This document shows, in pieces, positions 10,734 through 46,293 of a DNA stretch of 64,000 nucleotides. Position numbers and translations under genes: made by a program. The notes beneath the pieces were generated by a model. The model made no database searches. It was given only the letters and a program-made list of their open reading frames with translations, and was not told where the DNA came from. Source of the DNA: Alternaria dauci (taxonomy: Eukaryota > Ascomycota > Dothideomycetes > Pleosporales > Pleosporaceae). How positions within the stretch are numbered: the first letter of the stretch is position 1; each line of letters begins with the position of its first letter. The DNA is taken from positions 4,464,001-4,528,000 of the forward strand of contig NC_091272.1 in the NCBI RefSeq assembly GCF_042100115.1. Direction: 5' to 3'.

Positions 10734-13528
10734 CTACAGAGCTATAGAACTAAGACTAGGGCTTTGCATAATGTCAAAGATTGATACTTCAGCATCAGCT
10801 TTCGTAGCCAAAGTGTTCCTCAGTTCCACAGCTGTCAACGAGTCTACTCCAAACTCAGCCATTGGCTTATTAGGGAAAACTTCTGCCTCAGGAATCATGA
10901 AGATTTCCATAATTTTAGCGGTAATATCTGCTGCTACCGCGGCAGCAGCTTCCTCGAGTGACTTCGCCATAGCGATGCGGCCCGCGAGTGTATCGGCGGC
11001 ACCTGCATTCGGACTTTCGTTGCCTGTAGACCGGAATTTGGCAGGCCAGAAGCGGAGGTCACGAGACGCGGGCCCTTCGTCCCAAGGTGCACTGCTAGGT
11101 GCTGTGTTGATACCGAAAACAAGCTGAGTCACAAATGGCGCATTGATGGCGCATGCGAGAGATTTGAGAACATCCCCCTCAGATAGTACCATGTGACCCT
11201 GTTTCTTGAGATAGTTGTGCGTTTCGTCATGTTCGGCGACATATCCGACGTTCTTCACAGCCCCGATATCGATGGAGACGCAAGGTAATCCTCGGCTTGT
11301 GCGGTGTGCTGCCAGCGCATCTTGGAATGCACCACCTGCACCATAGTTACACTGCGACGCAATGCCAATAATGCCGGCGATGGAAGAGAGAATGACAAAC
11401 AAGTCGAGAGGTGTGGCTTCGAACGCTTTATGGAGATTCCAGGTTCCCTGTACCTTGGGACGTAGTCCTGTCGTGTAGTCGGTAAGGGACATTTGCTCTA
11501 AAATTGAATCTCGGAGCACCATGGCGCCTTGAATCACTCCGCGGACGGGAGCCATGTCTTTACTGGATTCAACGGCGCGCAAGACATCGTCCTCATTCGT
11601 AATATCACATGCGACAGACCTGACTTGGCAGTCCAGACTATGCAAGTGATTTATGAGAGGCGTTGCCTTGTCAGCTGCGTTAGCACTTCGAGAGAGTATA
11701 ATGAGGTTCCTGGCTCCATGTTCAGCGAGCTAGAGACAGATGCTCTGGCCAATGCCTCCAAAGCCACCGACGACGACATAAGACGCGTTGGAGTGCAGCT
11801 TCAGTCTGGGCACCTGGCGAATAACCTGCTTGCATATTAGTGAATGACCTTTAGACTTCATATAGCGAAATGAGGTATACGTACCGGTACCATACTATCG
11901 GGCTTGATTGAAAGAACTACTGTTCCCAATGATCCGCTCGACTGCGCGTTTCGGAAAGCCTGGACAACGTTCGATATGTCATGCACAGATACCGACACAC
12001 CACCAATCTTTCTTGCCTTCATGAGTTCCAGTGCCGAAGTCAAGGCCTGATGAACCTGGTGTCCCTTGTGCTTTGCCAATATAGTGATGTCGATCGCTGA
12101 AAATGTGATACCACGAGCAAAAGCGCCCATGTCAAGACGACTGTTCTGCTCCATATCCCTTTTACCAAGCTCAAAAAAGTGGCCAAGAGAGGCGACGCAT
12201 TCAAGTGTTTCGTGCAAAAGGGATGCTTCGAGAGTGTTAAGTACGATGTCTACACCGCAGCCTTTGGTCTTCTGACGAATGGCTGCGGCGAAAGTAGAAT
12301 CAGCGCTTGAAAAGATATGGTCCGCCTTGATGCCAATGACGCGCCTTATGAAGCTGCCATGTTCCATATCGTTCACCGTCGCAAAGATTTCTGCGCCGGC
12401 GAACTTGGCGAGGGATATCGCAGCCTGACCAACAGCTGAGCCAGCGTCGTGAACCAGTATGGTATCTCCTTTTTTGATGCGAGCAACATCCATGAGCGAG
12501 ATCCAGGCTGTCGCGTAAGCCTGAGGAAGGGCAGAAGCGAGCTCGAAGCTCATAGCGGATGGTATTTGTACCGCGCCGGTCCAAGGGACACGAATTCTGT
12601 TGCCAAATTCGCCGTTCATCAATACTGCGACACGGTCTCCAACCTTGTAACCCTCTAGAGAGGCCAGAGCACCAACCTGGGTTACCGTTCCTGCACACTC
12701 AAAACCCAAAGCTCTGTCTTGGAGAGTGTTTGTTGCAGCACCAATGTCGCGGGGTGTTAGGCCGAAAGCCTGGGGACATATCTCGAGCTCATCTGGCGTG
12801 ATATCTATGTTTGACTGATCGAGGCTGGGTACGAATACAAGACTGTCTAGATGTCCGGGGTTTTCAACTGTGAGTTGAAGCGAGTTGTCGTTAAACTTCT
12901 GCAATACAGTGGTGTTTGCCTCGGCTGCCTCAGGGAAGCACACCTTATTTCGCTCGTGGTCTTTGAAGTACCGCAGGACATTGATGACGCCGTTGCGCTC
13001 TGCGAACTCAAAATCTCGGGGCCCTTTTTCAGCAGCATCGTTGAAGAGGTTTGCATAAACACTGCTGATGGTCGAGACTGTAGAAGCTGACCAGGCGTCC
13101 ATGCTGGAGTCGAGGTCAAGAGTCGCCAGAAGTTTCCCTGAATATTCCAGCCGGAGAATACGAAGGAATCCTGAAGCTAGGCTGGAAAATGGATCATCGC
13201 TTTCCATGGCTCCACCCCGGGCAACCCAGAGCATGCCCTTTGACTTGGTGCAAGCATTCTTTATCGCAGAAAACTGCACATTCCCTGGATCAACCAGAAG
13301 CTGGGTCGAGACCTCAGGGAGGAAAACAACAATCTTCCCTTCGCAGTCAAGGTTGTCATATGCCTGAACCATAGGCTTCGAGTTAGTTATGGCGGTGATC
13401 GCGTTAGTCAAACTCTCTAGCCAATCTTGAGGCGCAGCCAGAGTGGAGACTGCGATTACCACTTCTGGATGATACTTCTTGGTGGGACATGGTACAAGTC
13501 TTGGCCTTGTTTCGTGACGGCTCTGCAT
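10734..13528 (-). pseudogene. truncated highly reducing polyketide synthase (ER-KR-ACP relic)
   Basis: Only the C-terminal third of a fungal highly reducing PKS is present. On the minus strand, 13528-11885 encodes the structural (psi-KR) linker and an enoylreductase with an NADPH-binding HDAGSAVGQAA. A 59-nt intron (11826-11884) leads to a ketoreductase with GGFGGIGQS and then an acyl-carrier domain with the phosphopantetheine serine in FGVDSLTAVE. KS, AT, DH and MT domains are missing: upstream there are only about 200 bp before the divergent regulator. Within the ketoreductase, TAG at 11730-11732 interrupts a conserved block where HR-PKSs have Trp. The frame ends at TAG 10734-10736, though 16 more PKS-like codons follow. 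It cannot make a working synthase. Confidence 0.88.
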
Positions 13529-13726
13529 TGCGTTGTTAAGACTATGCTATGTTTGTATTTAAACGGGTTGTAGAAGGTTGTACAAAAACGTCTCATTCAT
13601 AGCCGCTTTGTTCGCCTAGCGAAGCTACGCGAGTTGCCTATATACATCTGGTACACGAGAAACAACAGTGTTCAAGATTCGAGTGGCAAGACTAAATCAC
13701 TCCCATGTCCGTACAACATTTCGACC
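13529..13726. promoter_or_regulatory. divergent intergenic region, PKS relic / Zn2Cys6 regulator
   Basis: 198 bp between the divergent first codons of the PKS fragment and the regulator. A TTTAAATA-like element lies about 30 bp upstream of the PKS-fragment ATG. The deletion that removed the KS-AT-DH-MT half must end near here or inside the PKS frame. Confidence 0.4.
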
Positions 13727-46124: not shown

Positions 46125-46130
46125 AAAAAA
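46125..46130 (-). terminator. RNA polymerase III T-tract terminator
   Basis: Six T residues on the minus strand, 26 bp past the mature 3' end of the tRNA-like gene. This is a normal position for Pol III termination and supports transcription of the locus as a tRNA. Confidence 0.6.
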
Positions 46131-46156: not shown

Positions 46157-46293
46157 CGAAGCCCATGGGGATCGAACTGTTCAGTTGTTAGTATATTGAA
46201 GAAGCTTGTTGAGCTCAATAAGACTTACCCCACAACCTTTGGTGTTTATGTTTTCAACCGAAAACCAACGCGCTACCATTGCGCCAAGGCTCC
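46157..46293 (-). tRNA. tRNA-Arg(TCG)-like gene with a second intron-like insertion in the T arm
   Basis: Read on the minus strand. Acceptor GGAGCCT (46293-46287) pairs with GGGCTTC (46164-46158) with two G-U pairs; discriminator G at 46157. D arm GCGC-AATGGTA-GCGC. Anticodon stem TTGGT/ACCAA encloses 20 nt: a loop with anticodon TCG (46261-46259) plus a 13-nt intron after position 37. The T arm GTGGG-TTCGATC-CCCAT forms only if 46177-46228 (52 nt) is removed. That insert begins GTAAGT, contains TACTAAC and ends ACAG, exactly like a spliceosomal intron. The A box is intact; the B box is split. An alternative is a tRNA pseudogene hit by an intron-like element. Confidence 0.72.
46177..46228 (-). 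other. 52-nt spliceosomal-type intron inside the tRNA T arm
   Basis: Donor GTAAGT, branch-site TACTAAC placed 9 nt before the terminal AG, acceptor ACAG. Length and signals match the protein-gene introns of this window. It lies exactly between T-stem position 53 and T-loop position 54. Confidence 0.65.

Follow-up and report, generated by a model that had tools for sequence, protein, structure and literature searches.

Spliceosomal-type introns in the T arm of nuclear transfer RNA genes of Alternaria dauci

Fungal nuclear ribosomal RNA (rRNA) genes carry spliceosomal introns within a structural RNA that is transcribed by RNA polymerase I (Pol I), and an intron of the messenger RNA (mRNA) kind in 18S rDNA is reportedly, going by its title, the subject of one paper. 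This work deals with a transfer RNA (tRNA) gene of the ascomycete Alternaria dauci, tRNA-Arg(TCG), whose T arm is parted by what appears to be an intron of the same kind. The gene lies in a stretch of 64,000 nucleotides (nt) of contig NC_091272.1 (positions 4,464,001 to 4,528,000), which we call the window and in whose own numbering its features are given. The likeness to the rRNA-gene introns is that an mRNA-type intron sits in a structural RNA; the difference is that their host is a Pol I transcript and the host here is a tRNA.

The nearest precedents are U6 and U3. In fission yeast the U6 small nuclear RNA, a transcript of RNA polymerase III (Pol III), contains an mRNA-type intron that is spliced out during U6 maturation, according to the passages available from PMC10484740. 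The fungal U6 introns described there are like ours in that an mRNA-type intron lies within a short structured Pol III RNA, but U6 is a component of the spliceosome and the host here is a tRNA. The origin by reverse splicing that has been proposed for the U6 intron, which lies beside the catalytic site, is not directly transferable to our case because a tRNA is no component of the spliceosome. In A. dauci itself U6 has two full-length, uninterrupted matches of equal score, at C1:5350710-5350809 and C1:5438006-5438105, 87 kb apart on opposite strands; a further match of 61 bases adjoins the second of these. The spliceosomal introns of fungal U3 small nucleolar RNA (snoRNA) share with ours the signals GTRWGT, RCTRAC and YAG as well as the fungal spacing from branch point to acceptor (PMC5832005, in the part available), but there the host is a snoRNA and here it is a tRNA.

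Introns are also found in unusual places in tRNA genes. The ectopic tRNA introns of Cyanidioschyzon merolae, nucleomorphs and archaea occur in the T arm, position 53/54 included, and beside an intron at 37/38, as they do here (excerpts of PMC9602550 and PMC4090602). Those of archaea and C. merolae are tied to a bulge-helix-bulge motif and the tRNA endonuclease (PMC4090602, as excerpted), whereas in our genes that motif does not form and mRNA splice signals are present. The same source, a review from 2014, names in its available passages nucleomorphs and C. merolae for non-canonical eukaryotic tRNA introns and supposes other T-arm inserts to lie in pseudogenes (PMC4090602). Searches in a subset of the open-access (PMC) literature, with subscription papers and preprints outside their coverage, listed no spliceosomal intron in a nuclear tRNA gene. 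What would be new here is the class of RNA that hosts the spliceosomal intron.

The split tRNA-Arg(TCG) gene and its second copy

A segment of 52 nt parts the 5' strand of the T stem (GTGGG) from the T loop and the 3' strand (TTCGATC CCCAT). When this segment is omitted, the acceptor stem pairs at 7 of 7 positions, the D stem at 4 of 4 and the T stem at 5 of 5; when it is retained, the five bases 5' of the T loop pair at only two of five. The anticodon stem of the joined fold (TTGGT/ACCAA) is complete at five pairs and closes over a second insert of 13 nt at 37/38. The features of the gene are as follows, with a slash marking an intron site.

46157-46293, minus strand: tRNA-Arg(TCG) gene, consisting of exon 1 at 46293-46229 (which includes the 37/38 intron), the T-arm intron at 46228-46177 and exon 2 at 46176-46157
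46293 and 46157, minus strand: G1 of the tRNA and its discriminator base, respectively
46276-46286, minus strand: A-box region TGGCGCAATGG, read from the sequence and labelled by consensus
46259-46261, minus strand: anticodon TCG, in a 7-nt loop TTTCGG/C once the 13-nt 37/38 intron is omitted
46245-46257, minus strand: tRNA intron of the canonical kind at 37/38, 13 nt long (TTGAAAACATAAA); the second copy has the identical sequence
46177-46228, minus strand: 52-nt GT-AG intron at tRNA position 53/54
46223-46228, minus strand: 5' splice site GTAAGT, the preceding exon ending in G
46187-46193, minus strand: branch-point motif TACTAAC, its branch A 11 nt from the 3' splice site
46168-46178, minus strand: B box at the DNA level, AGTTCGATCCC, which begins with the AG that ends the intron
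46125-46130, minus strand: run of six T, Pol III terminator-like (TTTTTTGC)

An earlier note, made from the window alone, had described a tRNA-Arg(TCG) gene with a split T arm, GTAAGT, TACTAAC and ACAG within the 52-nt insert, a 13-nt insert at the normal tRNA intron site and a T6 terminator. All of this holds, and signals like those of the insert occur at the same site in three other tRNA genes.

With both introns removed, the RNA of the window gene has the cloverleaf as its minimum free energy structure, at an energy that is ordinary against shuffles (z -0.43); in the predicted fold the GAAAAC of the 13-nt intron pairs with GTTTTC of the anticodon arm. Neither ARAGORN nor Rfam at gathering scores reports a tRNA in the 64-kb window. 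Given the joined exons, ARAGORN names the gene Leu(TAA) because it shifts the 13-nt intron to after nt 33; the standard 37/38 placement gives TCG. We reject the Leu(TAA) label: the variable loop is short, whereas a long variable arm is expected of fungal tRNA-Leu and is found in the Leu genes of this genome that were read. The D arm is that of an Arg(CCT) gene described below and, together with the start of the anticodon stem, that of a further gene (L027) which we read as Arg(TCT). ARAGORN calls the L027 gene Asn, and it seems to misread intron-bearing Arg tRNAs here by shifting the 37/38 intron.

The genome searched is 34.9 Mb in 10 contigs, and this single genome is used throughout. A query of 251 bases around the window gene finds one other match in it, C1:2924332-2924508, at 84%. 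The match is another Arg(TCG) gene, which lies 1.6 Mb from the window gene and has unrelated flanks. Outside the T-arm intron the two copies differ at 0 of 85 positions (72 mature positions and the 13-nt intron), whereas the T-arm introns differ at 16 of 51 aligned sites and by one gap (Fisher p 2.7e-8). The second intron keeps its splice signals (GTATGT...TACTAAC...AG), and between the two introns only 1 of 15 signal columns differs, against 16 of 37 elsewhere with the gap counted (p 0.011). A diverged intron with kept signals and an identical remainder is the pattern expected of selection on a spliced product.

The earlier note had proposed to count other TCG-tRNA genes in the assembly and to look for genome copies of the insert. 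The count adds one more gene, likewise interrupted, and no intact one in the searches made. As for the insert, there is one diverged copy, in that paralogous tRNA gene, and no wider family of near-identical ones. A recent introner family, which would fit the note's suggestion of an introner-type intron, is not borne out, the 251-base query matching only itself and the paralogous tRNA gene; diverged or short copies would escape this search. As exact patterns, 24-28 exon bases had no match in viral_contigs or genome_contigs, which are non-eukaryote collections and have no bearing on other fungi.

Further genes with T-arm introns and the signals they carry

Two more interrupted genes were revealed by gapless patterns. 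One of these, YAGTTCGAWYCC, which describes the end of an intron followed by the T loop, has 10 genome matches and led to a Ser(CGA) gene (L065) at about C1:2407103; the other, YAGTTCGASYCC, has 16 and led to an Arg(CCT) gene at C5:2292900-2293022. The Ser(CGA) gene carries a 50-nt intron at 53/54, reading GCAGG/GTAAGA...TACTAAT...CCAG/TTCGAATCCTGC, plus a 37/38 intron. The Arg(CCT) gene carries one of 51 nt at 53/54, GTGGG/GTAAGT...TACTAAT...ATAG/TTCGAGTCCCAC, and no 37/38 intron, which is thus present in three of the four genes. The exon junction expected in Ser(CGA) is GCAGG joined to TTCGAATCC, and in Arg(TCG) it is GTGGG joined to TTCGATC. With inserts omitted, all four genes have an acceptor stem of 7 of 7 pairs and a T stem of 5 of 5, and ARAGORN names the joined form of the Ser(CGA) gene Ser(CGA). 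Introns of the mRNA type stand at the same T-arm position in at least four genes for three isoacceptors, and the window gene is not a one-off.

Four genes are a minimum, because the census is biased and the matches of the gapped patterns were partly read. The patterns for further genes demanded AG directly before TTCRA, which confines the census to the T-arm site; the Ser and Arg(CCT) genes were found by such AG-requiring patterns, and none of the four by requiring a branch point. The patterns YAGTTCAANYCC (45 matches) and RAGTTCGANYCC (36 matches) gave nothing beyond the second Arg(TCG) gene already known. A script read all matches of the gapless patterns (10, 45, 16 and 36) together with some 140 bases of upstream sequence, a span that a longer exon 1 plus intron could escape. 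The gapped pattern CTAAY..AGTTCRANNC has 28 matches, of which four are the known genes, four ordinary tRNA-Ile and two mitochondrial, while seven more were read without a new gene; none of the remaining 11, which lie outside the reading, has the pyrimidine expected at position 60. The CTGAY form of this pattern has 65 matches, and there was no new gene among the 13 read.

The four introns are built alike. Their 5' splice sites all match GTRNG (GTAAGT in the window gene and in Arg(CCT), GTATGT in the second Arg(TCG) copy, GTAAGA in Ser(CGA)), and all have TACTAAY with the branch A 9-11 nt from the end, an invariant TACTAA and a terminal AG. They are 50-52 nt long; the three other candidates with the strict signature in the window measure 48, 53 and 61 nt. 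This signature, GTAWGT..TACTAAY..AG, occurs four times in the window (both strands, tRNA gene included) against once in 40 Markov windows. ARAGORN recognizes none of the four genes as genomic DNA and all four as joined exons. When each of 978 GT-AG candidates is omitted in turn, ARAGORN gains a tRNA spanning the junction only at these four loci (seven rows, alternative Arg(CCT) ends counted). The 978 are distinct segments of the form GTRNG..YTRAY..AG, 40-74 nt long and with adequate flank, in 193 loci and the window; they are no random sample of the genome because the loci were partly chosen by pattern.

It could be argued that such inserts are ectopic tRNA introns with a bulge-helix-bulge that the tRNA splicing endonuclease cuts, like the intron at 53/54 in the tRNA-Ile(UAU) of C. 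merolae. The position agrees with this, since 53/54 is used in C. merolae and in some archaea (PMC9602550 and PMC4090602, in the passages available). The structure does not: only 1-2 of the 4 pairs of the central helix form in either of two registers in all four genes, and the two Arg(TCG) introns differ in predicted fold. The geometry in question is a central helix of 4 bp flanked by bulges of 3 nt. Moreover, the tRNA endonuclease has no need of GTAWG, TACTAAY and AG at a near-fixed spacing. We find this explanation very improbable. The spliceosome is the likely agent of removal, because the fungal mRNA signals are strong and at their normal spacing and the bulge-helix-bulge does not form.

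A different objection is that the genes are inert: intron-like segments would have landed in tRNA pseudogenes, and CGA and UCG would be read by other tRNAs. The 2014 review gives this some support by stating, in the part available, that in eukaryotes T-arm insertions mostly affect a single gene out of many synonymous ones and that such genes are supposed to be pseudogenes (PMC4090602), and the Arg(CCT) gene does have an intronless paralogue (L075). In both the anticodon stem and the T stem these two Arg(CCT) genes differ by paired changes, those of the T stem being at 50-64 and 52-62 and so across the intron, in an alignment read by eye. We consider inert genes very improbable. The acceptor and T stems are intact in all four genes, the Arg(TCG) copies are identical over their 85 positions outside the intron, and the splice signals are constrained. 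The pseudogene outcome that the earlier note had allowed for is contradicted by that identity in a copy whose intron has diverged, by the two further isoacceptors that are alike and by the lack of any intact Arg(TCG) gene among the matches searched.

These searches took several forms. Of 41 genome matches to the 5' end GGAGCCTTGGCGCAATGG with up to 3 mismatches, those at the two interrupted Arg(TCG) loci alone are exact, and ARAGORN finds no tRNA at the four loci that match it with 2 mismatches. A relaxed pattern from T8 to the TCG anticodon has 35 matches, and only the two known Arg(TCG) genes among them pair the D stem at 4 of 4; four more pair it at 3 of 4, but when read none of these has an acceptor and a T arm like those of a tRNA. 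The genome pattern searches made thus gave no Arg(TCG) gene without the interruption. A Ser(CGA) pattern has 17 genome matches, the one with 0 mismatches being the interrupted Ser(CGA) gene and the 1-mismatch match a Ser gene whose anticodon is read as TGA. A second Ser(CGA) gene was not found among the matches read, which are these two and the 2-mismatch match at C3:2233992 (no tRNA), while the positions of some others identify them as known tRNA genes. Of 931 candidates only 63 were scored in the Rfam tRNA search, so the isoacceptor census is incomplete; a nuclear Arg(ACG) was not seen among the tRNA genes collected in it.

Internal promoter, terminators and the transcribing polymerase

According to the earlier note the intron splits the B box. 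We find the B box to be whole: the last two bases of the T-arm intron are AG and adjoin TTCGATCCC, so that the intron's AG rebuilds GTTCGANNC. The same is true of all four introns, which end in AG, and the DNA reads AGTTCGANYCC across the 3' splice site. Bases 52-53 are AG in 15 and GG in 19 of 39 distinct intact nuclear tRNA genes, the motif being unmatched in the other 5. Both an A box, judged by its consensus, and a B box are present in the window gene. Enlarging the distance between the two has effects that a review judges minor (PMC4090602, as excerpted). We infer that 53/54 is a tolerated intron site because an intron there supplies its own start of the B box, bearing in mind that the gene searches demanded AG before TTCRA.

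TTTT is absent from all four T-arm introns, and downstream of the genes there are T runs of T6, T4, T5 and T6. A run of at least four T lies within 40 nt downstream in 38 of the 39 ordinary tRNA genes. A TATA-like element 42-44 bases upstream is found in three of the four interrupted genes, and 24 of the 39 ordinary ones have one.

Spliceosomal splicing is normally coupled to RNA polymerase II (Pol II), and the window gene is without the TATA-like element that those 24 genes have. Both facts would suit an account in which Pol II transcribes the genes within longer RNAs that are spliced before the tRNA is cut out of them. We regard this as improbable. The B boxes are complete and the T-run terminators present in all four genes, TATA-like elements stand upstream of three of them, and no reading frame of 250 or more amino acids spans the window gene. 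The earlier note had named a Pol II-made tRNA among its possibilities, and it is an unneeded one, as the T-run terminators and the TATA-like elements (three of four genes) resemble those of ordinary tRNA genes.

Some other features of the genome deserve mention. The intronless Arg(CCT) gene is the one of the 39 without a 4-T run within 40 nt, and its first T5 begins 47 nt past the gene. Four dispersed tRNA-Leu(AAG) genes (L086, L087, L088 and L089) share, with small changes, a trailer of about 32 nt before the T run (GCATTCGTCTG... to ...CCAGG), which may form a hairpin. An array of mitochondrial-type tRNAs, one with a TCA anticodon, lies inside C3:3344209-3399162, at most about 101 kb from the contig end at 3445196 (L003, L004, L010-L012, L017, L020-L025); either the assembly has attached the mitochondrial genome to this contig or the nucleus carries a very large copy of it. 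In the window, 10734-13546 on the minus strand holds parts of a highly reducing polyketide synthase (HRPKS), with zinc-binding dehydrogenase and HRPKS sdrA-like domains in 11861-13546. ALO and ELO also belong to the gene content, which together with the short introns fits a filamentous ascomycete.

Proposed maturation and its consequences

We believe it very probable that the window holds a working tRNA-Arg(UCG) gene with two introns of different kinds, whose Pol III transcript would be spliced by the spliceosome and then by the tRNA endonuclease. The earlier note's idea of two splicing systems is supported as probable by the GT-AG intron in the T arm and the separate 13-nt intron at 37/38. 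Pol III would transcribe the gene by way of its upstream region, the A box and the whole B box. The spliceosome would recognize G/GUAAGU, UACUAAC and AG in this transcript and remove 52 nt, and the T stem would form. RNase P and tRNase Z would trim the ends, then the tRNA endonuclease would remove the 13-nt 37/38 intron, and the product would serve in decoding. The spliceosome would probably act first, since the tRNA body is what the other enzymes (RNase P, tRNase Z and the tRNA endonuclease) measure. Removal of the T-arm intron is believed to precede that of the anticodon intron in C. merolae as well, according to the available part of PMC9602550.

Several observations weigh against a working gene of this kind. 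The anticodon arm of both Arg(TCG) copies contains a run of TTTT that might act as a weak stop for Pol III, and the second copy has a weaker terminator (TTT, C, TTTT). The missing TATA-like element of the window gene and the intronless paralogue of Arg(CCT) have been mentioned above. The evidence is confined to one genome. Finally, inosine may allow Arg(ACG) to read CGA, and wobble may allow Ser(UGA) to read UCG, so that the interrupted tRNAs may not be needed. We nevertheless consider the cell's need for Arg(UCG) and Ser(CGA) tRNAs likely. UCG is used 16.3 and CGA 8.0 times per 1000 codons, a rough figure from 5226 codons in eleven open reading frames of the window taken as stop-to-stop frames. 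In yeast, tRNA-Ser(CGA) is single-copy and essential.

With less confidence, we lean towards a wider reading in which a set of sense-codon tRNAs in this lineage would depend on the spliceosome, three of the four genes having an endonuclease intron too. The set would take in Arg(UCG) and Ser(CGA), for which the searches made found no other genes. Position 53/54 would then be privileged because the Pol III B box survives an intron there that ends in AG. Such genes escape a standard tRNA finder, with ARAGORN reporting none of the four as they stand and the Rfam tRNA search listing one of them among the candidates it scored, and tRNAs apparently missing from fungal annotations may be interrupted genes of this sort. 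To our knowledge, the removal of introns from eukaryotic nuclear tRNAs is ascribed to the tRNA endonuclease alone. If our reading is true, both RNA splicing systems would meet in one precursor, short Pol III transcripts beyond U6 would be substrates of the spliceosome, and one would have to ask how genes with internal promoters come to acquire introns. In this fungus, reading of the codons CGA and UCG would be tied to the activity of the spliceosome.
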